Of a DNA stretch of 42,731 nucleotides, positions 1,344 to 42,568 are shown one piece after another. The stretch covers positions 1-42,731 of the forward strand of contig CALGDE010000085.1 of the NCBI GenBank assembly GCA_937883785.1, given 5' to 3'. The notes under the pieces were generated by a model. The model was not told where the DNA came from and did not search any database. It saw only the letters and a program-made list of their open reading frames with translations. The translations under genes were made by a program, and so were the position numbers. The first letter of the stretch is position 1; each line of letters starts with the position of its first letter. The stretch is from an uncultured cyanobacterium. GTDB lineage: Bacteria > Cyanobacteriota > Cyanobacteriia > CACIAM-69d.

Positions 1344-1857
1344 AGATAAAATGCCAAATCAGCATATGAAATCAACACGCCAAAGGTACGCCACAAACGG
1401 CGGCAGCATCGTCAGAATACCAGCCTAGTTTTAGAAACAAACCCACTAGATAGCCTTGATCTCAATGAACATTGCGAAATCGAGTCCCTGAGAAAGTAGT
1501 CACATAGTAGTCATATATATGGTCATAAACAGGTAGAGATCACAACAAAAGTGAGGATTGATCACAGAAAAATCCTGTTTATAATCACGGTTAAAACACC
1601 CGTAAAAGCGGTGAATAGGGAGTATTCAGTAAGGAGTTTGAATAAGCAGGCAAATTATTATTATTGCTGCCTCTACTTTTTTGCACCGTTGACCACCTTT
1701 TTCAAAAAAACGTATCCTAAAAAGGTGTCACAGGCATTTTTAAAAGGATTGCAGGAACTGCTGATTCCAATCTAAATCCCTCGGTCAGGAGCTTTGTCAC
1801 CTTACCGGGTGTCCAATTCCCTGTCATCTGCTATCGCTATTGCCCGTAATTTCCCCT
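1344..1857. other. Intergenic region with an imperfect inverted repeat
   Basis: This 514-base divergent spacer between the HAD gene (minus) and the first M16 gene (plus) has no convincing coding region; a 74-codon open frame at 1551-1775 is AT-rich and resembles nothing I know. It contains an inverted repeat at 1691-1729 with arms CACCTTTTT and AAAAAGGTG. The repeat extends outward by two more pairs after one bulged C, with a loop of about 16 bases. A short near-repeat of TAGTAGTCA lies near 1495-1515. Promoters for both flanking genes must lie here, but I could not assign boxes with confidence. Confidence 0.4.
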
Positions 1858-3477
1858 ATGACTGATTCGTTAACTCCCCACAAGGAGAGCGCTTCGTTAG
1901 CATCTTCCAAAGCTGCGTCTCGGTTTAAAGCTGCCCTCAGAAAAACGCTACGCTCAACGGTGGCGATCGCCCTGGCTTTACTGGTTTCTGTGGTCAGCGC
2001 CCCAGCGTCAGCCTTTGCCATCGAGTCTTCCATTCGCCCCTATTTAGATCGAGTGATTGACCGGGTGAGCGAATTTACCCTGGACAACGGCATGAAATTT
2101 GTAGTGATGGAACGCCATGAAGCGCCTTTGGTGTCCTTTGTCACCTATGCCAATGTAGGCGGCGTTGATGAGCCAGATGGTCAGACAGGGGTCGCCCACT
2201 TCTTGGAGCATTTGGCATTTAAGGGCACTACCCGCATTGGCACTTCAGATCATGACGCCGAAGTGCCAATTATGGAGGAGATGAGCAAGATCGAGGTGGA
2301 GCGGCAGAAGGCTCGCGATCGCGGTGATGATGCAACCGCAGAGCAGCTACGGGAAGAGTTGATTGCCCTGGAAGCAAAAGCCCAGCCTTTTGTGAAGCAA
2401 AATGAGTATGGACAAATTGTGGAGCAGGCTGGTGGCGCAGGTTTGAACGCTGCCACCTCCGCCGACGCCACCTTCTACTTCTACAGCTTCCCGTCCAACA
2501 AGCTGGAGCTGTGGATGTCTTTGGAGTCGGAGCGCTTTTTGGACCCGGTATTTCGGGAATTTTATAAGGAACAGGAAGTGATCCTGGAGGAGCGTCGCCA
2601 GCGTACGGATAATTCGCCGGTAGGTAAGGCGATCGAAGTGTTTCTCGACAAAGCTTACGATGTGCATCCTTATAAGCGCCCAGTGATTGGCTACAACCAA
2701 GATATTCGTAACTTGACTCGTCTGGACGTACGGGACTTTTTTGAAACTTACTATGGTCCCGGCAACTTAACGGCGGCGATCGTTGGTGATGTGGATCCTG
2801 AGGAAGTGAAGCGTCTGGCAGAAACCTATTTCGGGCGTTTTAAAGCCCGTCCCGAGCCCCCCGACGTGATTCGCCAGGAGCCGGTGCAGCAGGGACAAAA
2901 GGAAGTTACGGTGCGTCTGGAATCCCAGCCTTGGTATTTCGAGGGCTATCATGTGCCTGGCTTAAACGACCCTGACGCCCAGGTGTACGAAGCCATTAAT
3001 CGTTTGTTAAGCAGTGGTCGCACATCTCGCTTTTACCAATCCATGGTGGAAGGCAAGGAGCTGGCGTTGAGCGCCCAAAGTATTTATGGTTTTCCTGGCG
3101 ATCGCTTTCCTACGCTAATGCTGCTGTACGCTTTGCCGTCACCGGGGCATAGTTTGGACGATATGGCAGAAGCGATTCACCAAGAGCTGGACTTGCTGAA
3201 AAATCAGTCGATTTCTCCGGAAGATTTGGAACGGGTTAAAACCCAGGCGCGAGCCAGTCGGCTGCGGCTGCTGGACTCTAACCAAGGCATGGCCAATGCC
3301 CTGGCGGAATATCAGGTCAAAACTGGTGACTGGCGCAATCTGTTCCGGGAGCTGGACCGTATCGCGGCCATCACCCCAGAGGATATTCAGCGCGTTGCCC
3401 GCCAAACCTTTAAGGAAAGCAACCGCACCGTTTGCCGCTTGCTACCGGTGGAGTCGGACGCCGCTGCTGCCCAGTAA
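1858..3477 (+). CDS. M16 family zinc metallopeptidase, catalytic subunit
   Basis: The protein (539 aa from the ATG at 1858) has a basic and hydrophobic N-terminal segment ending in SAPASAFA, which looks like a signal peptide cleaved near residue 54. It is followed by an M16 peptidase domain. The inverted zinc motif HFLEH is at about residues 114-118, followed by LAFKGT. A charged, coiled-coil-like insert of about 60 residues comes next, then an NAATSADATFY strand and EQEVILEE, which supplies the third zinc-ligand glutamate. A second M16 domain follows. The upstream TTG at 1840 would add six residues; I prefer the only nearby ATG. The next gene encodes a partner-like M16 protein 88 bases downstream in the same direction. 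Two-subunit M16B peptidases of this type process peptides, probably in the periplasm here. Confidence 0.88.
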   Translation: MTDSLTPHKESASLASSKAASRFKAALRKTLRSTVAIALALLVSVVSAPASAFAIESSIRPYLDRVIDRVSEFTLDNGMKFVVMERHEAPLVSFVTYANVGGVDEPDGQTGVAHFLEHLAFKGTTRIGTSDHDAEVPIMEEMSKIEVERQKARDRGDDATAEQLREELIALEAKAQPFVKQNEYGQIVEQAGGAGLNAATSADATFYFYSFPSNKLELWMSLESERFLDPVFREFYKEQEVILEERRQRTDNSPVGKAIEVFLDKAYDVHPYKRPVIGYNQDIRNLTRLDVRDFFETYYGPGNLTAAIVGDVDPEEVKRLAETYFGRFKARPEPPDVIRQEPVQQGQKEVTVRLESQPWYFEGYHVPGLNDPDAQVYEAINRLLSSGRTSRFYQSMVEGKELALSAQSIYGFPGDRFPTLMLLYALPSPGHSLDDMAEAIHQELDLLKNQSISPEDLERVKTQARASRLRLLDSNQGMANALAEYQVKTGDWRNLFRELDRIAAITPEDIQRVARQTFKESNRTVCRLLPVESDAAAAQ

Positions 3478-3565
3478 TTCCTACTGCGCTCCCACTGAGC
3501 CCCCATTGCGATCCCTGAAAGCGCAATTCTGAAACTGTTTTCGCCACTTTTTTCACCCCCAAACC

Positions 3566-5077
3566 ATGGTGTTTTTGCAAACCCTACGTCAGTTTATTAG
3601 TCAGGTCCTTAGCTCCATCGTCAAAGGACGCTGGCGATGGTCCCCGACCCTTCTAGCGATCGCTGCCTTGGGGTTAGTGGTGGTATCAGGCTGGCGATCG
3701 CCAGCCCAAGCCAACGAAGTGCGCTACCACGATGAGCTCACCTTTCCCCCTCTGCGGGAAATCACCCTGCCCGATTACGAGCGTTACACCTTGCCCAACG
3801 GCATGGTGGTGTATCTGCAAGAAAACCATGAGCTGCCTTTAGTGGAAGGACAGGCGTATATTCGCACCGGTAGCCGCTGGGAGCCCGCCAACCAAACGGG
3901 ATTAGCTGGCATCACCGGCGACCTAATGCGCAGTGGCGGGACCACGGAACATTCCGCTAACGCCTTAGCGATGCTGCTGGAAAGTCGCGCAGCCTATATT
4001 GAATCGGGCATTGGCACCTCCTCCGGCTCCCTCAGCCTCGGTGGACTGACGGAAGATTTTGATTTTGTGCTGGGATTGGCGGCGGAAGTGCTACGGAAAC
4101 CGGCGTTTCCCAGCGATCGCCTGGAACTAAGCAAAAAGCAAATTAGCGGCGGCATTGCCCGGCGGAACGACAACCCCAGCGGCATCGCCAGTCGAGAATT
4201 TTCTAAGCTAATCTACGGTGACACCAGCCCCTACGCCCGCACCATCGAGTACAGCACCCTCGACGCTATTACTCGGGACAACGTGGTGGACTTTTACGAC
4301 CAGTACGTAACGCCAAACCACATAATTTTGGGGTTATCGGGAGACTTCGACATTGCCACCGCCAAGGTGCTAATTGCCAAACACTTCGGTGACTGGCAAC
4401 CTACCTCTGTGCAGCTCCCCCCTATCCCTGGTACAACCCAAGCCACCTCAACGGGCACCTATATTGTGGACCGTCCCCAACTCACCCAAAGCTCCGTGCG
4501 CCTCGGTCACATTAGTGGCTTAGCCAGCAGCGAAGACTTTCCTGCCCTTAGTGTGATGAACAACATTTTGAACGGCTTTGGGGGACGGCTGTTTAATGAA
4601 TTGCGATCGCGCCAGGGGCTAGCCTACTCCGTCTATGGCTACTGGGATGCCGAATTTGACTATCCCGGCATTTTCCTGGCCGGCGGACAAACTCGAACCG
4701 AGGGCACCGCCGCCTTTATCAACGGCATCCGCAGCGAAATTGATCGCCTACGCACCGGTCCCTTGACGGAAGACGAACTGACCTATGCCAAAGACCTAAC
4801 CCTAAATTCCTTTGTATTCCGCTTCGCCACCCCGTTTCAGGTGCTATCTCGCCTGATGACCTACGAATATTACGACTACCCCAGCGACTTCCTTTTCCAA
4901 TATCAACAGGGTATTAAAGATGCCACCGTTGCGGATGTGAAGCGGGTGGCTAAAACCTATCTAAATCCTGACCAGTTAGTAACTTTAATCGTGGGCAACA
5001 AAGGGGCGATCGCTCCCCTTCTTTCATCGAAATCCCTGAAAGAAATCGACGTCACCATTCCCCCACCGACGTCGTAA
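3566..5077 (+). CDS. M16 family protein, non-catalytic partner subunit
   Basis: This 503-aa protein follows the catalytic M16 gene by 88 bases and probably shares its transcript. It has a hydrophobic N-terminal segment ending in SPAQA, a likely signal peptide, then the M16 fold beginning with YTLPNGMVVYLQENHELP. Where the catalytic HxxEH should be, the sequence reads GLAGITGDLMRSGG, so the zinc ligands are missing. The C-terminal half keeps GGRLFNELRSRQGLAYSVYG, the Arg/Tyr-bearing substrate-binding segment of the inactive subunit in M16B heterodimers such as the Sphingomonas pair and mitochondrial MPP. The reading is that the two proteins form a heterodimer, one bringing zinc and the other the binding pocket. 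This division of labour is inferred from motifs. Confidence 0.87.
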   Translation: MVFLQTLRQFISQVLSSIVKGRWRWSPTLLAIAALGLVVVSGWRSPAQANEVRYHDELTFPPLREITLPDYERYTLPNGMVVYLQENHELPLVEGQAYIRTGSRWEPANQTGLAGITGDLMRSGGTTEHSANALAMLLESRAAYIESGIGTSSGSLSLGGLTEDFDFVLGLAAEVLRKPAFPSDRLELSKKQISGGIARRNDNPSGIASREFSKLIYGDTSPYARTIEYSTLDAITRDNVVDFYDQYVTPNHIILGLSGDFDIATAKVLIAKHFGDWQPTSVQLPPIPGTTQATSTGTYIVDRPQLTQSSVRLGHISGLASSEDFPALSVMNNILNGFGGRLFNELRSRQGLAYSVYGYWDAEFDYPGIFLAGGQTRTEGTAAFINGIRSEIDRLRTGPLTEDELTYAKDLTLNSFVFRFATPFQVLSRLMTYEYYDYPSDFLFQYQQGIKDATVADVKRVAKTYLNPDQLVTLIVGNKGAIAPLLSSKSLKEIDVTIPPPTS

Positions 5078-11178: not shown

Positions 11179-12537
11179 TTATTCCTCAATGAAGATGTGT
11201 CCACTGTCTTCCAAGTTTTGCAGCAGGGTAATGAGGGTTTGGGCTAAGTGCTCTCGCTGAACAGGGGTTTGCTCTATGGGATTTAAAGGATAAACCTGTT
11301 CCAAGCGGTCCACTAGGGCGGCAAAAGGTTGGGCACCCTCTTGTAGTGGGAGGAGGGCGGGAAGGAGGGCGGCGTTTACCTCCGTTGATCGCTGAGGGGT
11401 GTTGAAGTATTGCTGAAGGTTAAAAGAACGGAGTGATCGCGCGGCAGTGATTAAATCACGATGAAAGTCGTCCGTTTGCAAAATCGGGTGCCACGCCACG
11501 GTGGCAGTTTCCCATTGTTCCGGTGACCAATCTTCAAGGGGCGATCGCTCCGTAGGCGGGGTGTGAGAACACCAAAAATCGATGAGACGATTATCCGGGA
11601 GCAACCCGTTCACCAATTCCAGGCGCTGGCGCTCATTGAAGCTAAGAATGGTGGTTTTTAAGCGATCGGGTAGGGATTTTTCACTAGTAAACACCTGTTT
11701 CCAATCCCACCGCTGAGGTGCCACTAGTCCGCACCATTCAAGATTCGACTGCTCTAGCAACGTGAACGTTTCCGCTAGGGTAAAGGCGCGATCACCATGC
11801 AAAAGAAAATTTGCTTGAATTAACTCCACCTTTTTTTCAGGGTTGAGTTTGGCATCAGCCTTCGTCCAAACGCTTTTCACAAAAGTCTTGGGAGACAAAT
11901 TTTCCAAAAGCTCAGACACATTATCGATGGCATCCTGGCTATTGGAGGAACTGATGGGATCCAACAGGCTAAAGGCTTTTTGGGCGTTCAAAAAACGCAG
12001 TCGCTGATTGTAATTGTGCAAATTTGTCCGCAAAATACCGTCGGCAGCCAAGACTCGGTTCAGAACCTTCAGACTGGCAAGGGGTTGGGGCAATAAATAA
12101 AGGGTTTCATCACAGTTGATATAGTCAAATATCTGCCCCAGTTGTTCCAGATTATCCACATCCAAAACGTGGAATTGTAGGCGATCGCTCAACTCCCAAA
12201 ATTCTGCCCGTTGTTTCGCCAACTCAATGGACTTTGGCGAAATATCAATGCCCACTACCGTCGTTCCCGGATTAACGTGGGCTAAGGCCAAAGCTTTGTA
12301 ACCACTGCCGCAGCCCACATCCAAAATGGTCATTCCAGTGGTGTCAACCTGGCGAAAATCCCGACGATAAAACGCTGTTGCAAGGCTGTGCTGATGAAAA
12401 ATGGCAGGACTTTCCTTAATATTTTCCTCAATAGAAACCCAAGGATAAGGAGTCCCGTCAAATTGTCGCCTTAGGGCAGCTAGTTCTGCAGATTGCTCGG
12501 AAGATTCAGGCGAAGGGGGGGAAGATGAGTTGGGCAT
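11179..12537 (-). CDS. Class I SAM-dependent methyltransferase with C-terminal accessory region
   Basis: The 452-aa protein has a Rossmann methyltransferase core at about residues 65-180. The SAM-binding motif LDVGCGSGY is near 72-80, an acidic VGIDISPKSIELA strand follows, and an FDYINCDETLYLL motif IV-like segment after that. A long C-terminal half of about 270 residues contains a DFWCSHTPP segment and LEDWSPEQW, which also occur in the neighbouring paralogue. This larger architecture recurs in cyanobacteria, and its substrate is not known to me. The gene is 123 bases downstream of a paralogue in the same direction, so a duplicated operon is likely. Small-molecule, lipid or protein methylation are all possible; the sequence does not choose. 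Confidence 0.85.
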   Translation of the reverse strand: MPNSSSPPSPESSEQSAELAALRRQFDGTPYPWVSIEENIKESPAIFHQHSLATAFYRRDFRQVDTTGMTILDVGCGSGYKALALAHVNPGTTVVGIDISPKSIELAKQRAEFWELSDRLQFHVLDVDNLEQLGQIFDYINCDETLYLLPQPLASLKVLNRVLAADGILRTNLHNYNQRLRFLNAQKAFSLLDPISSSNSQDAIDNVSELLENLSPKTFVKSVWTKADAKLNPEKKVELIQANFLLHGDRAFTLAETFTLLEQSNLEWCGLVAPQRWDWKQVFTSEKSLPDRLKTTILSFNERQRLELVNGLLPDNRLIDFWCSHTPPTERSPLEDWSPEQWETATVAWHPILQTDDFHRDLITAARSLRSFNLQQYFNTPQRSTEVNAALLPALLPLQEGAQPFAALVDRLEQVYPLNPIEQTPVQREHLAQTLITLLQNLEDSGHIFIEE

Positions 12538-12660
12538 GGGAAATGAAGGGATAAGACTTGGATGGGTGTAGAGCAGCGATCGCCCCTTGCCAGTGAAAAT
12601 GAGGAAACGACTTTGTAGGAAAAATAGGCGCAGACATATAAGAGCAGAAATCGCCAGAAT

Positions 12661-14067
12661 CTAGTCCATTTGCTCGGGAAGTACATAGCCCCATTTAGCA
12701 AGTTCGGTTAAAAGGTAGCGCAGGGGGGCTGACGCTTGCTCTGTGGTGGTGGGAGCTAAGGACACGGAGTCAATGGGACACACCTTTTTCCAGTAATCCA
12801 CCAGTTCAGCAAAGGTCTTCGCTCCGTCCAGCAGGGGAATTAAGCCGATTACGATCGCCCCGCTAATAGTTTCCATTCCCCAAATAACGTTAAAAAATCT
12901 GCGCATCTGCAAATCATTAAAACCGGTCACTGCCTCCCTAAGCCCCGCCTTAAATTTTTCATTATTAATCTGTGGATTGAGAGCCACCCTCGCGGTTTGC
13001 CAATGGTGTGGCTCCCACTCTTCTACTCCTAGAAACTCACGGTTTGCTTCCGGGTGACCGCACCAAAAATCCAGCAGCCGATGTTCCGATGCCAGCAAAT
13101 CATGGATGTGCAACTTCTCCCCCTCCGACGCCATTGATAATCCCATCGCCAGAAATGCTGGCATATCATCGGGATCTCTCAACAGATCTTCAATACACCA
13201 ACTTTGCCAACCCACCATGCTGACCCAGTCCAGCTCGGCTCGCTCCGTGCAGTCAAGCATTTCAGGCACCGTAAAACCGCGATCACCATGGAACAGATAA
13301 TTCATCATGAAATACTCTTCTATATCAGCCTTCCCAGAGCTCCAGGTTGCTTTCTTCAACAGCGTGGAATTCCTGAGGGCCTCAAATAACTCCCGTACCA
13401 CCTCCACTTCCATCTCACCAGGATTGCCATCCATCAGTCCCATTAAATGGAATAATTCCTGGGCTCTGAAAAAATAGGCCCGCTGCAATCGGTTATGTAA
13501 ATTGGTGCGAATAATGCCATCGTCAGCTAGCACTGTTTTCATGGCCGCCAAACCCACCGCAGGATCTGGCTGCAAATAAAGCAGCTCGTCACAGTTAATG
13601 TAGTCAAACTTTTCGGGGAGCAACTGGTCCAAATTTTCCAGGCTCAACACCTCAAATCGGCTACGATCACCGAACCCATAGTGGTCCATCCGCTTCTGGG
13701 CCAAATCGATGGAGGCTGGAGACAGATCAACGCCCACCACAGTGGTTCCCGGATTGGCCAACGCCAAGGTCAACGAGCCGTAGCCGCTCCCACACCCCAC
13801 ATCTAAAATCCGCATTCCCTGGGTATCGATCAGCTTCTGATAGCGTCGATGATAAGCGGTCACCAAACAGTGTTGGTACCGATTCAATGGAGTGGGCTGG
13901 GCCTCTAGAGCTTGCCGAGGGTAGGGAGCCCGGTCAAATTGGGCACGGATTTTCGCGAGCCTGTCCCGCTCCTTTGACTTCAACTTAGGATCATTGCCCA
14001 ACTTGCTGTCTAACTCGCTTGGATCCGTATTGGCAGTAGAAATATTGGGCGATTCAGGGAGAGACAT
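12661..14067 (-). CDS. Class I SAM-dependent methyltransferase, paralogue of the adjacent gene
   Basis: The 468-aa protein has the same layout as its downstream neighbour: a variable N-terminus, AQFDRAPYPRQ (compare RQFDGTPYPW in the neighbour), motif I LDVGCGSGY near residues 88-96, VVGVDLSPASIDLA, and FDYINCDELLYL. The C-terminal region includes NYLFHGDRGFTVPEM, LLDFWCGHP and a winged-helix-like ending with ELAKWGYVLPE. Conserved segments shared along nearly the whole length show tandem duplication followed by divergence. It is the first gene of the pair, and a 643-base non-coding region lies upstream. The reaction is methyl transfer from SAM; the acceptor is unknown. Confidence 0.85.
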   Translation of the reverse strand: MSLPESPNISTANTDPSELDSKLGNDPKLKSKERDRLAKIRAQFDRAPYPRQALEAQPTPLNRYQHCLVTAYHRRYQKLIDTQGMRILDVGCGSGYGSLTLALANPGTTVVGVDLSPASIDLAQKRMDHYGFGDRSRFEVLSLENLDQLLPEKFDYINCDELLYLQPDPAVGLAAMKTVLADDGIIRTNLHNRLQRAYFFRAQELFHLMGLMDGNPGEMEVEVVRELFEALRNSTLLKKATWSSGKADIEEYFMMNYLFHGDRGFTVPEMLDCTERAELDWVSMVGWQSWCIEDLLRDPDDMPAFLAMGLSMASEGEKLHIHDLLASEHRLLDFWCGHPEANREFLGVEEWEPHHWQTARVALNPQINNEKFKAGLREAVTGFNDLQMRRFFNVIWGMETISGAIVIGLIPLLDGAKTFAELVDYWKKVCPIDSVSLAPTTTEQASAPLRYLLTELAKWGYVLPEQMD

Positions 14068-17697: not shown

Positions 17698-17713
17698 TTA
17701 AACCTCATAAACA

Positions 17714-17803
17714 GCTTCCCTCCGCCGGTGTGAACCGGGTCAGGTTCTAAGGGTGCTTCTCAGCCTGGATCGCGCCTAATAGTGGCAACCCGACGCCCCT
17801 AGC
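17714..17803 (-). promoter_or_regulatory. TPP riboswitch (THI element) in the thiC leader
   Basis: Read on the minus strand, the leader contains the conserved TPP-aptamer segments in order: a TAGGGG 5' strand, CTGAGA, ACCCTT, GAACCTGA, then CCGG...CCGGCGGAGGGA closing the P1 helix. These are the pyrimidine- and pyrophosphate-sensing helices of the THI box. The aptamer ends so near the thiC start that P1 and the ribosome site probably compete; no separate terminator hairpin lies between them. Translational control is therefore the likelier mode, as inference. Confidence 0.93.
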
Positions 17804-18324
17804 TAGATTCAAAATCGCGGAAATGTCTCGGTTCTAATGCCTTAGATTTGCTGCAGGAGATTATGGCTCCAAACATCCATACCAAGCCCCGAAAAACAGG
17901 TATTTTCCAACGTACTTCTTACGTACTTAAAAATGAATCTCAGAGGAATACTAAACCTGCAATTCAGTGAATTCAAGGGGTATTTACAAAGCAATGCTTA
18001 AGCAGCAAACATCACTTCTATCCATATAAAATCAAAACAAGATGGATATTTTTATTTGCCAATTTCTATAGTTTTAAAATAACTATTTCCATTTCTTTCT
18101 TATCTGAGTTAATCAAGTCAATTTACCAAATATCTGCGAATAACACCTGAAAGAGAGGCAATCAAAACGACAATCACAGACACAAAAGATACAGGAGAGC
18201 CCGTGCTTACGTTTCGTAGTAATGGCTAAGATTCTATAATTAAAATCCTGTTAATTGTTCACAGGATTCTTTTGAAAACCTTTCGATCATCTTCCACGCA
18301 GCGTTTACAAGCGATCGCCCAATA
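17804..18324. other. Divergent spacer between thiC and menA
   Basis: About 520 AT-rich bases with no supportable gene. It must hold the thiC and menA promoters. One short inverted repeat lies near the menA end at 18244-18268: AATCCTGT and ACAGGATT, nine-base loop, followed by CTTTTG. That repeat could be a 5'-UTR hairpin or the terminator of an unseen small RNA. A HIP1 site lies about 15 bases before the menA start. Confidence 0.4.
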
Positions 18325-33932: not shown

Positions 33933-34364
33933 CTACGAGTTAGCCGTTTGAGCAGCCAACAAATCCTTGAGCTTGGACAATTCGCCAGCCCAACGGGGAT
34001 CCGGCTGAGCCGAAGCCGTTGCATCACCCAAGGTCACAGGACCACGGCGCTTCTTGCCACCGGAGCGACGATTACTCTTGCCACCCTTTGCATTGTTATT
34101 GCCTTCAGCCTCTTCAGAACGAGGAGACGCTTTTTCAACCTTTAATTTGCTGTCGTTGAAATCATAACCGTTGAACTTGGCAATAATTGACTCAGCTTGG
34201 GCATCATCAGGAACGGTAACAAAAGCAAAACCACGACATTTTCCAGTCTTATGATCAGTGATGAGCTTCGTTGAAGTTAGCTCGCCTCCTTCCTTCAGCA
34301 AGGTTTCCAAATCGGTGCGCTCCACCTCTTTCGGCAGATTTCCAACGTATAAGCGGACGGACAT
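33933..34364 (-). CDS. Single-RRM RNA-binding protein (cyanobacterial Rbp type)
   Basis: The 143-aa protein has one RNA recognition motif at the N-terminus, with RNP2 LYVGNL (residues 5-10) and RNP1 KCRGFAFV (42-49). A Gly/Asn/Arg/Lys-rich basic linker and a short helical end (WAGELSKLKDLLAAQ) follow. Cyanobacterial Rbp proteins of this size bind RNA and many are cold-induced or direct mRNAs to membranes. I place the start at 34364, where an AGGGGAG ribosome site precedes ATG and the RRM begins at once. An open frame upstream to 34448 would add 28 unconserved residues. The upstream region is long and could hold a structured leader, as in cold-regulated rbp genes. Confidence 0.9.
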   Translation of the reverse strand: MSVRLYVGNLPKEVERTDLETLLKEGGELTSTKLITDHKTGKCRGFAFVTVPDDAQAESIIAKFNGYDFNDSKLKVEKASPRSEEAEGNNNAKGGKSNRRSGGKKRRGPVTLGDATASAQPDPRWAGELSKLKDLLAAQTANS

Positions 34365-35118
34365 GTGACGTACTCCCCTTTGAGGACCTAAACGACTTTG
34401 AAACTTGTTCGGTGAATAACAACATTCAGAATCGGAGTCCAACACCACGTCGTCAATCTAGACTTACTGACCGCAACCTACGTTGAACTATCTAAATGTG
34501 GAGCTAATACCTGAATGCTTTTGTCAATACGAAAGTAGCTGGAGTCAGCAATAACTAAATTCTTAATCTAGTTTCTAGTCGCCATTGTTAGCCTTTAACG
34601 CTATGCCCAAGTTTGCTTAATTGAGACGATTAAACTGCCTTAAACAGGGCGACAATGGCTATTCAATACTGAGTAAATCTATACTGCTTCGCTGGGAACA
34701 AAGTGTATCACGGATGTTTGTGGAATGTGACCAAACCCGTAGAAGATGAGCAACCCGGAGAAATTTCGCGAAATACTGAAACTCCAAAGCCATTTGAATT
34801 GCTCTTTGCAGATCTCTCAGTTCACAACCTCAACTCGGCAAGCCCCTCAAGAAAATTAAGGGAGTCACTTTCCACTCTAGATAAAGTCAAGCTTTCTCTT
34901 AGGGCGCGTCATCGATCAAGCGTCAAAAGCCTTACACCGCTAGAAGTTCATGCCCTTTCAAAACAAAGCTTGTTAGGGACTGGAATTCTTGTAGTTACTG
35001 ACCTTGAGCCTTAAACAATGACAACCTTTAGATACTTTTCCTATTGCAAAGAAATGTAACACATTTACCCTGTGCTGTCTGTACAGTGCGGCATTCAGGG
35101 AATCTGCGCCGAAGGGTT
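34365..35118. other. Long spacer with one weak open frame
   Basis: About 750 bases lie between the RRM gene start and the end of the M48-like gene. It holds only one plausible small ORF, listed separately. No tRNA, repeat family or terminator could be recognised. The start of this region probably includes the RRM gene's promoter and leader. Confidence 0.35.
34703..35014 (+). CDS. Possible small hypothetical protein
   Basis: A 103-codon frame from a GTG at 34703 encodes a hydrophilic protein with a Ser/Leu-rich middle part (LRESLSTLDKVKLSLRARHR). It has no recognised domain, membrane helix or signal. There is no clear ribosome site before the GTG. The frame ends about 105 bases before the convergent M48-like gene. 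It is the only gene-sized frame in this spacer, but I cannot confirm it is expressed. Confidence 0.25.
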   Translation: MYHGCLWNVTKPVEDEQPGEISRNTETPKPFELLFADLSVHNLNSASPSRKLRESLSTLDKVKLSLRARHRSSVKSLTPLEVHALSKQSLLGTGILVVTDLEP

Positions 35119-37677
35119 TTACAGCCCACGATTTAAAATCCACAGCCCTAGGGCGATCGCCCCAATAGCCAGTCCCGTTGACCACAGGGGATGACCATCG
35201 ATTTTGGTCCAGGACTTCTTAATCAGCACGTGGTTGGGAGCATTTTTGTGGTTCAAAATATCCACATCTAGCCAGGGAGTCGCTCCCCGCCGTAGCCAAC
35301 CAATAACCTCGACGGATCCGTTGGGCTTAATGGGACGGGTCCAGTGGTTCCAAAGCTTGCCCAGATGTCCAAAGCGGTTTCCTAGACGTAGTCGCACGGT
35401 GCCGGTGTCCGTTTGAAGCCACCAGTGTTGCCCTAGGAGGTTTTCCCGGGGCTGACGTCCCAGTAATCGCCCCTGTAAACGCACCACCCGGCTGTTGACG
35501 GGCAGGGCGTTGGGATCGTTCAGTTCTGCCGCTAGGGGGCGATCTGGGGTGGCGCTGGTGACTAGTCCAAGGGTTTTGATGTCGGGAAAGAAGCTGTTGA
35601 CGCGGATAATGGTGCCGGTGCCGAAGCCCAGCAGGGCAAAGCCTATCAGCAGGGAGCGATCGCCATACATCCAGTCCAGCCCCCGCAGGTTCAGAATTTC
35701 CCCAATGCCGCCGGGCATCCACAGCAGCACCCCTATCGCCGCTCCCACGATGGCTCCGATGGCGGGGGCGGACTGGTGCCACAGGGTGAAGGGGGTGGGG
35801 GGCAAACAGGCGGTGCCCACTCGCGGCAGGTATTTCAAAGTTTGTTGGTCGGCGTGGTCGCGGCTTAAATCCCACTCGGGCTCCAGCTTCCAGCGTTCTG
35901 CCCATTGACTGTGGCGAAACAGGCGATCGCCCAAGGTGGGATGGGTGCTGTTGGACCGTAGCCAATGGCGATAGGGGTTGCGCCGCTCCCACTGCAAATA
36001 GGGCTCTAGGGGGCTGTGGGGGTAGAGGCTGCCCACGGGAATAGATTGGACAGGGGGCACCGGCAACACCAGTTGGGTTAGCTCTAGCAGGGGAGAAATG
36101 GCGTTTTCCTGGTGCAGTCGTTCGGTGGTGGCGATCGCCAGTTTGACCAGCGCCCGCGATAAACCGTTGGGATCCCCCGTGGACAGCACCGATTGGCGAT
36201 CGCCGTAGCCAATGCGCGATCGCGATAGCCACAGCAGTGGCCACCGTCCTAGACGGAAGATTTCATAGCTGATGGCGGAAACAGCGATCGCCATGGCACG
36301 GGGAATCGGCATTTGCCAACGGTCAATCATCTTTGCTGAGCCCCAATAGCTCCCAAAAGGCAGCGCCAACATAAGCGTCCCCCAGCCCATCACCCGCATA
36401 TCACCGGCAATAATATGCCCCAGCTCCGCCCCAAACAGTGCCGATAGCTCCCCTTCGTCCACTGCTTCCAAAACCCCCTGGCTGACTACGATACGGGCGT
36501 TAGCCTGGCGCGATCCATAGCTAAAAAGCACCGGATCCATTGTGGGCAGCAGCACAAGCTGGGGAATGGCGATTTTATGGCGGCGGCATTGGCGTTGGAG
36601 CAGTCGCCCGGTGTCGGGACGCTGGCTATTTAAATCCAGCAGTCGCAGCGTACGCCCCTGACAGAGTCGCTTGAGTCCTTCATCAATTAGCCACGGCGTT
36701 GTGCCTAACAGCACCGCAAAAATCAGCCAAATTCCGATAAAACTGCCGGGTCTTAGGGGAATTAGCTCTAAGTCTTCTGTGGGCAGCCAGGTGACCCTAA
36801 AAATAATTTGGTTATACAGCCACGACAGCAACACAAAGGGGGTGGTGGCAAAGGCTCCAAAGGCGATCGCCGACAGCAGTTGCAGTCCCTGGTATCCCCA
36901 CTTCGGCGCCCCGGGCAATGTGCCCCAGCGCTCGATTTTCTCGCCGTTTCGCCACTGGGGTTCGTAAGGTTGGGGACCACCAGGGGCTGTACTGGTTTGC
37001 AGATCGTTGACGGGGGCGGTGCTTGCTGGTGCACCGTTGGCAGCATTGGCGTTAATCACCACGCGCTTTCGAGGAGGAAACGCTGGCGGTGGAGAGGCGA
37101 TCGCCGCAGGGTTTGCGCTTCCACCCTTTCCATTGGTTCCGTTGGTGGGCAAAGATTTAGCCGCCACGCCATTGACATTAAGAGATTTGGCGGCAGAAGG
37201 CGCAGCGGGTGCGGAAGGCTGGACCTTTTGGCGAACTTGCTGACGAACGACCTTGCGAGGGGAATTAGGGGAAATAGGCTGAAAATCAGGGTTAGGCTCC
37301 GGCAGATTTGCCCCACTGGACGTCCCGCCCTCAAAGGGCGTAAATCCGCTGCCGCTAGCTGCACTGTTATCAGGCTCTTTATCGAGAGAATTCCCTTCGC
37401 CGTAAAGACGATTCCAAATGGCTATGGCGCGATCGCGAACCTGGGGATTTTTGTGGGATTTTAGCTGCTGCCCTAATTCCTGCGCCGCTGCCGTTTGACC
37501 CGATTCTCCATAAGCCTGAAACAGCCCTAGCGCCGCCTTAAGCCTTACATTTCCCGGTCCTTGCCGATCACCCATCACCGGCTTCAAAAGGGCAACCGCT
37601 TGGTCGTATTGCCGTGTTTGAAGCGCCTGTAGCCCCTCTGCCACAATGCGCGGATAATCCGTTGAGGAAGATGCCAT
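35119..37677 (-). CDS. Large membrane protein with a degenerate M48 peptidase domain
   Basis: The 852-aa protein has a TPR-like helical start (about 1-95) and a Pro/Ala/Asn-rich linker to about 245. Hydrophobic segments near 265-290 and 312-330 follow, then an M48 (Ste24/HtpX) peptidase fold at about 340-600. The zinc motif HExxH reads GAELGH (residues 416-421), with the first His replaced by Ala. The third-ligand EYEAD box reads IGYGD. The family's late HPTLGDRLFRHSQW is kept. Two of three zinc ligands are therefore missing, so proteolysis is doubtful. A further pair of helices and an OB-like domain (RVVRLQGRLLGRQPR ... VRLRLGNRFG) lie before a final C-terminal membrane anchor. The gene lies 105 bases downstream of the ATL gene. 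Confidence 0.8.
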   Translation of the reverse strand: MASSSTDYPRIVAEGLQALQTRQYDQAVALLKPVMGDRQGPGNVRLKAALGLFQAYGESGQTAAAQELGQQLKSHKNPQVRDRAIAIWNRLYGEGNSLDKEPDNSAASGSGFTPFEGGTSSGANLPEPNPDFQPISPNSPRKVVRQQVRQKVQPSAPAAPSAAKSLNVNGVAAKSLPTNGTNGKGGSANPAAIASPPPAFPPRKRVVINANAANGAPASTAPVNDLQTSTAPGGPQPYEPQWRNGEKIERWGTLPGAPKWGYQGLQLLSAIAFGAFATTPFVLLSWLYNQIIFRVTWLPTEDLELIPLRPGSFIGIWLIFAVLLGTTPWLIDEGLKRLCQGRTLRLLDLNSQRPDTGRLLQRQCRRHKIAIPQLVLLPTMDPVLFSYGSRQANARIVVSQGVLEAVDEGELSALFGAELGHIIAGDMRVMGWGTLMLALPFGSYWGSAKMIDRWQMPIPRAMAIAVSAISYEIFRLGRWPLLWLSRSRIGYGDRQSVLSTGDPNGLSRALVKLAIATTERLHQENAISPLLELTQLVLPVPPVQSIPVGSLYPHSPLEPYLQWERRNPYRHWLRSNSTHPTLGDRLFRHSQWAERWKLEPEWDLSRDHADQQTLKYLPRVGTACLPPTPFTLWHQSAPAIGAIVGAAIGVLLWMPGGIGEILNLRGLDWMYGDRSLLIGFALLGFGTGTIIRVNSFFPDIKTLGLVTSATPDRPLAAELNDPNALPVNSRVVRLQGRLLGRQPRENLLGQHWWLQTDTGTVRLRLGNRFGHLGKLWNHWTRPIKPNGSVEVIGWLRRGATPWLDVDILNHKNAPNHVLIKKSWTKIDGHPLWSTGLAIGAIALGLWILNRGL

Positions 37678-37782: not shown

Positions 37783-38193
37783 TCAGCGTTGCCCCAACAG
37801 TTCGTCGATTATTGCCAATTCTGCATCCGTAGGGTGCCAGCGACAGGCTTTAAAATCCACCGTTAATTTATCGTCCAGCTCAATACCCTCCGCTTCTAGG
37901 AGCGATCGCTGAAAAAAATCCGACCCATTGCGAAACACTGACTCAGACACCTGCCCCTTCGCATTAATCACCCGCTGCCAGGGAATGTCTCCATCCTCCG
38001 CCACCCGAAACAGCGCATAGCCCACCAGCCGAGCCTTACCCCCATATCCCGCCAGCTCAGCAATTTGCCCGTAGGTAGCCACCTTGCCAAAGGGAATCAG
38101 CCGCACCACCGCATAAATCTTGTCGTAGGCATTTTGTTTCGCCTGCTTAGCCTGCTCTGCCTCATCTGACTGTTGAGATGATTGACGCCCCAT
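37783..38193 (-). CDS. Alkyltransferase-like (ATL) protein, MGMT fold without catalytic Cys
   Basis: The 136-aa protein has the DNA-binding half of the O6-methylguanine-DNA methyltransferase fold, with IPFGKVATYGQIAELAG and a VGYALFRV region. At the position of the acceptor motif PCHR it reads PWQR (residues 71-74), so Trp replaces the catalytic Cys. That is the defining feature of ATL proteins, which bind O6-alkylguanine, bend the DNA and hand it to nucleotide excision repair. A Gln-rich N-terminal tail precedes the domain. The gene precedes the M48-like gene in the same direction. UvrA, its known partner pathway, is encoded 11 kb away in this window. Confidence 0.88.
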   Translation of the reverse strand: MGRQSSQQSDEAEQAKQAKQNAYDKIYAVVRLIPFGKVATYGQIAELAGYGGKARLVGYALFRVAEDGDIPWQRVINAKGQVSESVFRNGSDFFQRSLLEAEGIELDDKLTVDFKACRWHPTDAELAIIDELLGQR

Positions 38194-38443: not shown

Positions 38444-40036
38444 TTAGAAAGTGAAGGTGGTCCGCACAACGCCCACAATTGCAGCGTCGTTGTCGTCATC
38501 ATTCTCAGGGTTGGTAACCACAAAGACCGCAGGAGTCACGGAGATGTTGCTGTTTAGCTGCATCCGGTACAACGCTTCAATGTGCCAGGTAGGATCGTCC
38601 TCATCACCAATGCCGTCGCCGTCAATGACATAAGGAGGCTGACCTACGATAATGCCGCCAACGTTGCCTTCCTTAAACAGGTCGGGGAACGCAAAGTGCA
38701 CAGCCCAGTTAAATAGGGTTGCATTATCATCGTCGTCGTCAGTTTCATTGGCGAAAGACGCACTGACCCAGCCACCTAGTTCAAAACCGTCGGTAATGCG
38801 AGCGTTGGTCTGTAAACCAACGTTATGAGCAGTGACAGCAGTGCCGGTACCAAAGGGACGACGGCCGAAGCTACTACCGGTGCTAGCCGTTAAGTCACCA
38901 CCGGGGGTGTAGTAGCGATAGGAGTAAGCTAACGCCGCAGTCCAGGCATCAGTGACTTTGTAAGTAGCGGTGGCGTTAATACTGAATGCACCGTTAAATA
39001 AGCCGTTGCCTTCGGTGGGATCATCAGCGTCAGCAGCCAAGTAGCTCAAAGCTGCGCCAAAGCGATCGCCCTTGTAATCAATACCAGCACCCGCGCCTTC
39101 GGGAGCACGGAAAATCAGAGGGTCACGACGACCCCAGCGAGAAACAGAACCCTGTCCGCCACTTTTTAGGGGGTTAATAACGGCGTGAATCTCGTCCACG
39201 TCCATGCCCACAGTACCCACGTGTGCACGGAAGCCATTGCCAATGGGGAAGCGGTAGGTCAAACGACCCAAGCGAAAGACGTTGCCGGTGTTGGCCTCAA
39301 AGCCAAACCGAGCTTGACGGGTGCGATCGCCAAAGTAACGAGCAACGTTACCAGTCTGCAAACGAACCCGCAAACGATCCTTACCGTGGAAGCTGGTGTC
39401 GAAGTTCAAACGAACCCGCTCAGAGAAGGTGACTTGGTCGTCGTCAGAATCTCCGTCCTCAAAATCCACATCATTGGAACCTGCCAAGGCGAAGATAACT
39501 TCAGCCTTTAGCTTGGTAGTGGTGGAAAACTGGTTAGCTTCTAGCTCGGTGGTGCGGGCTTCTAGGGCATCCACACGACCACGGATTTCCGCTAGCTCAG
39601 CAGCAAACTCTTCCTGAAGACGCTGTAGGGTCTGCAAGTCTTCCTTGGTCGCCAAGGGATCCGTTGCAGCAGCGATTAATTCGTTAACGCGGTCCAAGCA
39701 AGCGTTTAAACCAGCGGCAAACTCATAACGAGTCAAAGCGCGATTACCCCGGTAGGTTCCGTCGGGATAACCAGCGATGCAGCCGTAGCGCTCCACTAGG
39801 GACTGTAGAGCTTGGAAAGCCCAGTCAGTGGGGGATACGTCAGACAATTGGGAAACAGAAGTTACCTGCTCCATTGAGTGGACGCTACCGCCAAAATCAT
39901 CAGAAGCAGCGATCGCTTCAATACTGCCGTCGTCGATTGCGATTTCATTCGCCAGGGCAGAACCCTGAGCAACCATCATCGAAGCCCCCAGCAAAGCGGG
40001 GCTGATGCGGATTGCGTTCCACAGAACTTTTAACAT
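38444..40036 (-). CDS. SLH-domain outer-membrane porin (OprB/iron-uptake type)
   Basis: The 530-aa precursor has a signal peptide ending in GSALA near residue 29. An SLH domain follows (DVSPTDWAFQALQSLVERYG and CIAGYPDGTYRGNRALTRYEF, about residues 67-110), anchoring the protein to peptidoglycan. Next is a coiled coil with DALEARTTELEA, and then a beta barrel of about 350 residues ending in Phe, the usual C-terminal signal for outer-membrane insertion. This layout is that of cyanobacterial porins annotated as iron-uptake or carbohydrate-selective porins. The barrel has highly acidic loops (EDGDSDDDQ, ETDDDDDN and NPENDDDND). GAGGAAAA lies just before the ATG as ribosome site. Substrate unknown. 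Confidence 0.92.
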   Translation of the reverse strand: MLKVLWNAIRISPALLGASMMVAQGSALANEIAIDDGSIEAIAASDDFGGSVHSMEQVTSVSQLSDVSPTDWAFQALQSLVERYGCIAGYPDGTYRGNRALTRYEFAAGLNACLDRVNELIAAATDPLATKEDLQTLQRLQEEFAAELAEIRGRVDALEARTTELEANQFSTTTKLKAEVIFALAGSNDVDFEDGDSDDDQVTFSERVRLNFDTSFHGKDRLRVRLQTGNVARYFGDRTRQARFGFEANTGNVFRLGRLTYRFPIGNGFRAHVGTVGMDVDEIHAVINPLKSGGQGSVSRWGRRDPLIFRAPEGAGAGIDYKGDRFGAALSYLAADADDPTEGNGLFNGAFSINATATYKVTDAWTAALAYSYRYYTPGGDLTASTGSSFGRRPFGTGTAVTAHNVGLQTNARITDGFELGGWVSASFANETDDDDDNATLFNWAVHFAFPDLFKEGNVGGIIVGQPPYVIDGDGIGDEDDPTWHIEALYRMQLNSNISVTPAVFVVTNPENDDDNDAAIVGVVRTTFTF

Positions 40037-40166
40037 TGGGAATTTTCCTCACACCTAACAGAACCCAGGTACGATTCCGGATTCAACTACCCAGCGCAAA
40101 AACGCATGTAGCTATGGTCCTAATCGTAGCAATTACTACTAAATTTGCAGGGTTCACTATTGAAAA

Positions 40167-40189
40167 AATAAGCAATTTGGCCGCTTATT
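40167..40189. repeat. Inverted repeat upstream of the porin gene
   Basis: AATAAGC and GCTTATT are separated by nine bases, about 130-150 bases before the porin start codon. It could be an operator for the porin gene; no known consensus is matched. Confidence 0.35.
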
Positions 40190-40321
40190 GCAAGAGTTAT
40201 TCAATAGTTTTATCTGCTCCTTACCCAGTCTTAACTTTATGGATAGAAGTTATTGGCATTCATGGAGATATTTCCCGCTCGCAGGGTTTGCCAGTTGGCT
40301 ATAGCGGGATTTGGGCGATGA

Positions 40322-42568
40322 TTAGGCGGTATCCATATGGATAGCAATGATAGCTGGCATTGGAATGGCGTTGAGCGATCGCCGCGGCCAGTTGGAACCA
40401 ATGGGAACCCGCCGCTTCTGCATAAAAGGAGTGCCGTTGGTGGTCAATAGAGGAATATCGGCGATGGTTTCCGCTAAGTCTTTGCGCGCCCCGCTGACTT
40501 CTCCAGGATGCTGAATCGCTAAAAATAGGCTTTCTGGCTGGGTATCGGTGGGAGTCACAAAGCAGGGACCGGTCATTTCCACATCCATGGGACCGTAGGC
40601 AAAAAGCTGGGGAATGCCCGCGTTGGAGCCGGAACGGGGGATGCACCATAGGGAATTATTGCCGTAGATCGCGCTGAGTTGGGCGGGATGGAGTGGATTG
40701 CCTTCAACGTTACGGCGATCCGCTCTAAGTGATCGGTTTAACAGTCCGCCGGACGTATCGGTTACAAACCATAGATTTTCCTGAAAGTCCAAAGCTAGGT
40801 TGTCGGGATTTGTAAATCCGCCGCCGCCATGGGCTGATTCGCCGCCAGTGACAAGAGGGATCCAGGAAAATGTCAGAGATTCTGGATGATTTTGGTCCTC
40901 ACGCACCTTAAAAATCCACCCTTGGTCGTGTTGTCCATCGGCGTGAATCGGCGCTTGGGGGAGCGGCTGAAAGATATCGCGCTGGGGGCCGCCTTCCCTT
41001 GAGCTGGCGAGCCCTGAGGTAAACGCCACAAATAAATTGCCGCTGCTGTCGATTGCCAAATCTTCCGGGCGTGCTGTGCAGGTGGCTCCAGCGGCGCTGG
41101 CGGCGTAGTGGGCATCGATTAAAATGGCACCTTGTTTTTCAAGGTTGTTTCCCACATATAAGTCGCCAAGGGTGGAATACCGCTGGGCAAATTGGGTAAC
41201 TGCTTTCTCGTTGCGCACCAGTTCCCAGCCACCGCCCGGGCGACGAGGTAGAGCTAAACCACCGCCCAGTTGATCGCTGGGCTTTTGAGGATTGACTGGA
41301 GTGTCAGGGGTGAGGGGAATCCAAGTGCCGGTGCCATCGGCGTTAAAGCGGGCGGCGTAGAGGGTGCCTTTTTTAAAAAGGCGTGAGTTAGCTTTGTCTT
41401 GGGGGGCGCGGATGATACTGTCGCTAACGAATTTATAAAAATGTCCGCTGCGGCGATCGCACCCGGAATACACCACCAGGGGATGCCCCGCTTCTGCCCG
41501 CACCGCCACCGCTTCATGGCGATATCGCCCCAGCAGGGTGTGTTTGGTGCCAAAGTCGTCGGGATTGAGCGGGTCGATTTCCACCATCCATCCATATTTA
41601 TTACCCACATATCCCAGCAGGCTGCCGCTGCCCACCATGCCACGGTTGGAAACAAAAAAGGGGCGATCGCCAGGAGGAAACGCACTGCCGTCGGGATACA
41701 CCGATTCGGTTACCCAGCTTTGGAAATTTTCCTCCGCGCTCAGCACCGTTCCCCAGGGAGTATGCCCGCCTGCGCAGTTGCCGAAGGTGCCCACAATGGA
41801 ATCGCCCCATTTATCCTGATAGCCCTGCACCGTTTTTTTACGAAATATCGCCGTCGCCGGTCCCGTTGCTTTTAACAATCGCCGCCGGTTATCGAAGCCT
41901 GCTAAGCCAGTGATACGGCGATCGCACTTAGATGGTTTTCGTTGCCATTGACCGTTGGCATCCCGCGCCACACCCATAACGCCCACACCCACGTCATACA
42001 ACGACGCCTTTGCCAACTTGAGCACCGCCGATCGCCCCGCTTCCGACTGGGGCAATCGCTGGGCATAAAGTCCCGTTTGCCCTGCCTGCCTAACCGCCGC
42101 AATGCCCGCCTTTAACGGTAGGGGCTCACCAAAAATCTCAGCGTACCCCGCAAACCAGGGCTTACCGCTGATGTATTCAAAATTGATGGTCAGCACTCCT
42201 TCGTCGGGTCCCGTTGACGTGAAGTGCAAATAGTCGTTGTTGTAGCCCAGGCGATCGCCATTCCCCAAATAATCCCCCCATTTCCCCACCACGTTATACG
42301 TATAGCCTTCGGGCAACACCACATCGTCTTCCACCGTAAATGTGGCGTATTGCTTAAGTTGTTCCGCCGTGGTGCGGGTTTCGGCGGCGGTGGGGGCAGC
42401 GCTAGGAATGGGTTGAAAGTCAGAAAAATGGGGCGTAGAAACGATCTTGCTAGCGGTGCCGTCGAATTGAGTGGCGGTGGCGATCGACCGGTGGGAGTTT
42501 AAGGCAGCGGTTCCGATTCCTGCTCCCAAAAATAGCAAGACATCACGGCGGCTGAATCCTGTAGACAC
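40322..42568 (-). CDS. PhoX-family alkaline phosphatase, Tat-exported
   Basis: The 748-aa protein is a PhoX-type (DUF839) phosphatase, a calcium/iron enzyme that releases phosphate from organic esters outside the cytoplasm. The N-terminus has a Tat signal with the twin-arginine motif SRRDVLLFLG, followed by AGIGTAAL. Family segments include GNCAGGHTPWGTVLSAEENF, the GWMVEIDPLNP strand, RHEAVAVRAEAGHPLVVYSG, RPEDLAIDSSGNLFVAFT and TNPDNLALDFQENLWFVTD. The start codon is GTG at 42568, preceded by an AAGGG-type ribosome site. A candidate Pho box lies about 70 bases upstream, so induction on phosphate starvation is likely. The downstream porin gene is in the same direction after a 285-base gap. 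Confidence 0.9.
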   Translation of the reverse strand: MSTGFSRRDVLLFLGAGIGTAALNSHRSIATATQFDGTASKIVSTPHFSDFQPIPSAAPTAAETRTTAEQLKQYATFTVEDDVVLPEGYTYNVVGKWGDYLGNGDRLGYNNDYLHFTSTGPDEGVLTINFEYISGKPWFAGYAEIFGEPLPLKAGIAAVRQAGQTGLYAQRLPQSEAGRSAVLKLAKASLYDVGVGVMGVARDANGQWQRKPSKCDRRITGLAGFDNRRRLLKATGPATAIFRKKTVQGYQDKWGDSIVGTFGNCAGGHTPWGTVLSAEENFQSWVTESVYPDGSAFPPGDRPFFVSNRGMVGSGSLLGYVGNKYGWMVEIDPLNPDDFGTKHTLLGRYRHEAVAVRAEAGHPLVVYSGCDRRSGHFYKFVSDSIIRAPQDKANSRLFKKGTLYAARFNADGTGTWIPLTPDTPVNPQKPSDQLGGGLALPRRPGGGWELVRNEKAVTQFAQRYSTLGDLYVGNNLEKQGAILIDAHYAASAAGATCTARPEDLAIDSSGNLFVAFTSGLASSREGGPQRDIFQPLPQAPIHADGQHDQGWIFKVREDQNHPESLTFSWIPLVTGGESAHGGGGFTNPDNLALDFQENLWFVTDTSGGLLNRSLRADRRNVEGNPLHPAQLSAIYGNNSLWCIPRSGSNAGIPQLFAYGPMDVEMTGPCFVTPTDTQPESLFLAIQHPGEVSGARKDLAETIADIPLLTTNGTPFMQKRRVPIGSNWPRRSLNAIPMPAIIAIHMDTA

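Follow-up and report, generated by a model that had tools for sequence, protein, structure and literature searches.

The window analysed here is the whole of a 42,731-nucleotide stretch, contig C85 of the 4.84 Mb cyanobacterial genome G000, and it carries on its reverse strand a gene (35119..37677) for a putative pseudo-M48 membrane protein of 852 residues plus a stop codon, identified by its open reading frame, its match to peptidase family M48 and its place in a clade of 87 sequences. Elsewhere the window contains a TPP riboswitch above the Rfam cut-off (17700-17810, reverse strand), two pairs of adjoining open reading frames, grouped by similarity in clusters numbered 5 and 7 (1840-5077 and 11179-14067), that are perhaps tandem duplicates, and an OprB/SLH porin gene next to a PhoX-type alkaline phosphatase gene (38444-42568, reverse strand).

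From its N-terminus, the protein is composed of a TPR-like domain (residues 1-95; 37393..37677), a linker (96-240; 36958..37392), two membrane helices predicted from hydropathy (helix 1, 267-285, 36823..36879; helix 2, 305-323, 36709..36765), an M48 fold (385-587; 35917..36525), two further predicted helices (helix 3, 640-658, 35704..35760; helix 4, 675-699, 35581..35655), a conserved C-terminal domain (705-812; 35242..35565) and a final predicted helix (helix 5, 830-848, 35134..35190), all encoded on the reverse strand. The M48 region matches the Pfam model Peptidase_M48 (PF01435) with an E-value of 7.7e-12 and 45.9 bits (cut-off 20.3), and the same profile is matched by 35 of 36 relatives at E-values up to 0.1, which places the domain in the M48 fold superfamily. 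Among its closest known counterparts are the HtpX-type peptidases (PRK02391; PDB 3cqb), with which the family shares the fold, the order of the motifs and the predicted helices ahead of the domain, the clade profile matching 3cqb at E 3.5e-8. It differs from them in having lost zinc ligands, in the added TPR-like, linker and C-terminal domains, and in scoring far under the equivalog cut-offs, since the HtpX NCBIfam models match weakly (at best 45.3 bits against a cut-off of 341) and the protein is thus not an HtpX equivalog.

The domains flanking the peptidase fold had been described in a first-pass annotation of this DNA, made from the sequence alone, as a TPR-like N-terminus, a long disordered linker and an OB-like C-terminal domain. 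The first of these is backed by the relatives, 30 of 33 of which match TPR_19 in their N-terminal domains at E-values no higher than 1 (1.3e-8 for the best); the window protein itself scores 22.8 bits (E 0.00011), short of the required 25. The linker is indeed long and variable, with 44% identity to the nearest relative, L036, as against 86-88% in the parts that follow it, and it is probably disordered. The OB-like assignment was not confirmed: no Pfam family matched the window's C-terminal domain and a PDB profile search with it returned no match. The Pfam family DUF5818 matched the C-terminal domains of 4 of 38 members (best E 0.0041), the window's domain not being among them, and an AlphaFold model of residues 700-812 built from a two-row alignment gave six strands at low confidence (mean pLDDT 43.5). 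A model of residues 245-852, also from two rows, had a mean pLDDT of 29.1 and was unusable for the M48 fold or the zinc site. The membrane location and topology are predicted from hydropathy and charge; basic residues outnumber acidic ones after helix 2 (10 Lys/Arg to 4 Asp/Glu) and in residues 700-812 (16 to 8), a pattern that fits, but does not prove, a cytosolic M48 domain and C-terminal domain.

Loss of two zinc ligands throughout one clade

In the window protein the HExxH position reads AELGH (A417-E418-L419-G420-H421; 36415..36429, reverse strand), with alanine in place of the first histidine, and the downstream ExxxD box reads IGYGD (residues 489-493; 36199..36213, reverse strand), with I489 in place of the zinc-binding glutamate and D493 kept. 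The late motif HPTLGDR (579-585; 35923..35943, reverse strand) is retained, and the first-pass description of the two missing ligands holds. L036 (contig CALCTI010000031.1, from an uncultured cyanobacterium), which is 77% identical to the window protein in its best segment, has the same residues at the zinc positions.

The distribution of these losses was established across 386 cyanobacterial genomes, of which 104 match the window protein at E-values up to 1e-10. The resulting alignment of 139 rows, which supersedes an earlier one of 91 (31 with the first histidine and 60 without), includes three short HtpX proteins; its other 136 rows belong to the family and divide into 87 sequences of the main pseudo-peptidase clade, 42 with an intact site, one partly degenerate and six degenerate sequences outside the main clade. 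Left out were other M48 proteins (L001-L003, L005) and copies of genes already included (L004, L126, L146-L156), and no rows of their own were given to second pieces of one gene (G143, G320, G101) or to further short HtpX matches (G033, G167, G191). The 87 clade rows represent 86 of the 386 genomes plus one MAG. Trees were built minus the four catalytic columns. All 87 rows group together in the full tree (SH-aLRT 99), with no intact sequence among them, and the 33 of these rows that entered a more careful tree of 58 are supported at 100/100. A search for relatives in viral contigs confirmed none.

Both the first histidine and the zinc glutamate are missing from every clade member (0/87 each), whilst the fold-defining residues are kept: D493 and R585 are invariant (87/87) and H579 is present in 83 of 87. 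The catalytic glutamate survives in 37 and the second histidine in 41, and all four catalytic residues are gone from 32. Neither the window protein nor any other clade member therefore has both zinc histidines with the catalytic glutamate, or the third-ligand glutamate, that an active M48 peptidase would require. All 43 paralogues, by comparison, have the first histidine, the catalytic glutamate and the zinc glutamate, and 42 of them have the second histidine. The first-pass annotation had suggested that the protein may be a pseudo-peptidase serving as a scaffold or substrate binder at the membrane. Close homologues with an intact HExxH would have undermined the pseudo-peptidase reading; such homologues were looked for and are absent from the 87-row clade, the intact sequences belonging to a separate, paralogous clade. 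An isolated mutation or a sequencing error was rejected, since L036 carries the same residues and both ligands are missing clade-wide. Judged by its sequence, the window protein is almost certainly a dead protease.

The paralogous clade, in which the site is intact in 42 rows and partly degenerate in one, comprises a long active cyanobacterial protein that aligns with the pseudo-peptidases over the helices and the M48 and C-terminal domains, an alignment that in many members takes in the N-terminal domain as well; it differs in its own intact HELGH and zinc glutamate. Near-fixed residues define the pseudo-peptidase clade in their turn, among them R494 (82 of 87, where 42 of 43 paralogues carry histidine), N746 (99%) and P539 (100%). 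One member of the active clade, L057 (G005:C60), has a single TAA within its match and is perhaps a broken copy. Outside the main clade, six sequences (L081, L082, L092, L138, L139 and L140) have degenerate zinc sites; the loss in L140 is well supported as clearly separate, whereas the other two outside lineages fall at unresolved forks of the 58-row tree and their independence is not proven. L089, also outside the main clade, keeps the first histidine and the zinc glutamate and has glutamine in place of the second histidine.

Selection was estimated from the window and L036 as a pair. Overall dN/dS is 0.16 by the NG86 method and 0.21 by YN00; the respective values are 0.10 and 0.15 for the M48 core, 0.06 and 0.05 for the C-terminal domain, and 0.41 and 0.87 for the linker. 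Low dN/dS, the clade-wide absence of the ligands and the invariance of D493 and R585 together point to an old and conserved pseudo-peptidase family, and thus to a clear example of a protease clade stripped of catalysis yet retained. A search of open-licence papers found no cyanobacterial pseudo-M48 protein, and a review of inactive metallopeptidases contains no occurrence of Ste24, Oma1 or HtpX. Chloroplasts or cyanobacteria have also kept dead proteases of other kinds, the FtsHi pseudo-proteases and the pseudo-orthocaspases, whose families are unrelated to M48.

The neighbouring RF3 and Rbp3 genes

The strongest clue to function is the gene context, which the first-pass annotation had not seen. 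Downstream of the pseudo-M48 gene and on the same strand lies a gene (33933..34448, reverse strand) for an RNA-binding protein with an RRM (RRM_1, 7.6e-17) and a C-terminal QPDPRWA tail, which together make it a class II cyanobacterial Rbp, that class being defined by an RRM and a C-terminal PDPRWA motif (PMC9333190). An Rbp3-type gene holds this place in 60 of the 86 genomes, the window included, across 10 family codes, and the gene for peptide-chain-release factor 3 (RF3, prfC) lies just upstream on the same strand in 50 of 86, across nine family codes. The window is not one of the latter: its genome's RF3 gene is located elsewhere, on contig C101, and the upstream neighbour is instead an alkyltransferase-like gene (37783..38193, reverse strand; PF01035), found in 5 of 53 loci and typical for the window's family, in the place that RF3 holds in many other families.

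These counts combine two sets. Among 53 loci (the window, L036 and 51 other genomes), the downstream RRM gene is present in 41 and upstream RF3 in 28; a further 34 genomes, scored by listed coordinates, have Rbp3 in 20, RF3 in 22 and both in 18. The remaining 14 of these 34 include four contig ends, three genomes without a listed position and one without a pattern match for Rbp3, and over all 86 genomes 26 have no Rbp3 neighbour and 36 no RF3 neighbour. A PDPRWA-type tail ends 40 of the 41 downstream proteins read, and for the 41st, L146, which was translated in a wrong frame, the pattern search puts the tail alongside. Gaps are 39-150 bp in five loci; the Rbp3 gene is about 0.2-1.2 kb from the pseudo-M48 gene and probably has its own promoter. 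In the window the intervening stretch ahead of rbp3 is long (34449-35118), relatives show spacings of comparable length, and the 322-base piece of it closest to rbp3 is 80% identical to that of L036. No Rfam family was found between the two genes in the window, and promoter-like or terminator-like sites in this stretch are not in excess.

Presence of either neighbour in a genome says little, given that 385 of the 386 genomes have RF3_C-like matches (204 of them above the cut-off) and 183 have the Rbp3-tail pattern; it is adjacency that is informative. Among 24 genomes lacking the pseudo gene, picked for having RF3 and Rbp3 matches on one contig, the two are never neighbours and lie at least 217 kb apart in 24/24. 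Neither adjoins the active paralogue in any of 20 loci, a further difference between the two clades, and 12 loci with wide flanks share no other gene cluster common to more than three. The occurrence of the tail in 183 genomes, as against pseudo-M48 in 86, indicates that Rbp3 can function without the pseudo-M48 protein, and a neighbourhood of genes is not an interaction.

The homologues in Anabaena 7120 allow this context to be set beside published work. The Rbp3 homologue rbpG is all4377 (PMC11500504), and all4379 encodes RF3, a target of FurA and NtcA (PMC12282138; PMC4005646). By these published locus tags and synteny, all4378 between them is predicted to be the pseudo-M48 gene. In the rbpG null mutant photosynthesis mRNAs are reduced, the thylakoids are disturbed and photosystem II repair is poorer, and a part for Rbp3/RbpG in positioning psaA and psbA mRNAs at the thylakoid has been implied (PMC11500504); the function of Rbp3 is directed by its tail (PMC9333190). 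The available portions of the Rbp3/RbpG literature name no membrane partner for it. By the title of a 2025 study, Rbp3 reportedly interacts with ribosomes and with the 3' ends of photosynthesis mRNAs.

Helix 4 and its resemblance to PsaJ

Helix 4 contains the sequence RVNSFFPD, and 37 of the 39 matches of this segment in a PDB profile search are to PsaJ, photosystem I subunit IX (best E 0.003), all of which represent one family and count as one. Control segments from helix 1, helix 3 and the fourth helix of the active paralogue gave best E-values of 1.4, 4.3 and 8.4; helix 5 reached 0.0027, but to repetitive chains and with no single stretch passing alone. Of the 87 clade members 68 have the motif N..FP[D/E/N], which none of the 43 paralogues has. 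Against the PsaJ model PF01701 the window segment scores 16.0 bits (E 0.017), below the cut-off of 22.4, and 6 of 21 members match it at E-values up to 1. In PsaJ itself the motif lies on the side opposite to the cytosolic one. A cytosolic M48 domain would put the helix 4 motif on the cytosolic side and leave it ill-suited to a simple mimic. The resemblance is a weak lead.

A possible docking role and the alternatives

That the protein acts as a scaffold or binder of some kind is likely. More specifically, we tentatively propose, at somewhat less than an even chance, that the family consists of old, conserved and catalytically dead M48 membrane proteins of HtpX/Ste24 type whose role is docking at the membrane for the Rbp3/RF3 pathway; the docking component, drawn from gene context, is itself conceivable but still short of probable. 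According to this proposal, the TPR-like domain, the dead cleft and the C-terminal domain would face the cytosol, and one or other of them would bind partners rather than cut them. The partners may be the Rbp3 ribonucleoprotein, the terminating ribosome or both, and the protein could in this way dock mRNAs for photosynthesis, or the ribosomes on them, at either the plasma membrane or the thylakoid.

How photosynthesis mRNAs are transported to the cyanobacterial thylakoid is poorly understood, and the pseudo-M48 protein offers a concrete candidate partner, its gene standing in many families between those for RF3 and Rbp3. The gene context, new here, makes it a testable candidate for membrane-coupled translation, and an rbpG null mutant already exists in Anabaena 7120. 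A more elaborate version would have the protein serve as the membrane receptor of membrane-coupled translation, with the PDPRWA tail of Rbp3 held by the TPR-like domain or the dead M48 cleft, RF3 acting at that site when translation ends, and the clade-specific PsaJ-like helix recognising photosystem I assembly partners. If true, this would couple delivery of psaA and psbA mRNAs, translation termination and photosystem assembly on one scaffold, but it is improbable as a whole.

Foremost among the alternatives to docking for Rbp3 and RF3, and rather less than likely, is that the dead peptidase is a chaperone, a substrate trap or a scaffold for membrane-protein quality control, the RF3/Rbp3 order having been inherited with no shared function. 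Two proteins lend it substance. BepA, an M48 protease of E. coli, likewise combines an M48 domain with TPRs, which bind outer-membrane assembly partners, and has a late histidine near its site, although it is periplasmic and active and its TPRs are C-terminal (PMC7950410). RF1-Oma1 of sugar beet, a dead M48 relative whose zinc motif is broken, binds a membrane protein; it differs in being a mitochondrial, young duplicate that keeps both motif histidines (HQVGH) (PMC6894571), whereas in the window family two ligands are gone throughout a whole clade. Inheritance of gene order is harder to reconcile with the surroundings of the locus, where order is otherwise poorly kept and yet RF3 and Rbp3 recur in nine and 10 family codes, respectively.

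Docking is also preferred over a role as partner or regulator of active M48 proteases, like that of inactive members in other protease families, which we consider unlikely. The pseudo-M48 protein, found in 86 genomes, and the long active paralogue, found in 43, coexist in 28, and the window's genome encodes four further M48 proteins, every one with an intact HExxH. The long active paralogue is, however, missing from 58 of the 86 pseudo-bearing genomes, including all four of the window's family code, each of which has the pseudo-protein, and its loci are without the RF3/Rbp3 context; as the partner in question it is disfavoured by this distribution across genomes.

It is very doubtful that the protein remains a metalloenzyme by virtue of a rearranged metal site. 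The second HExxH histidine and the late histidine are kept together in 40 of 87 members, and the latter probably corresponds to H246 of BepA, a further zinc ligand in its plug (PMC7950410). Against this, the catalytic glutamate and the second histidine are both present in only 23 of 87, none of the four residues is left in 32, and no histidine or cysteine has been gained clade-wide, the gained candidates being the acidic positions 558, 673 and 728 only. A decaying gene or pseudogene, for which the free variation at the catalytic positions might speak, is contradicted by the absence of internal stops among the clade matches listed, a core dN/dS of about 0.1 and invariant non-catalytic residues, and can practically be dismissed.
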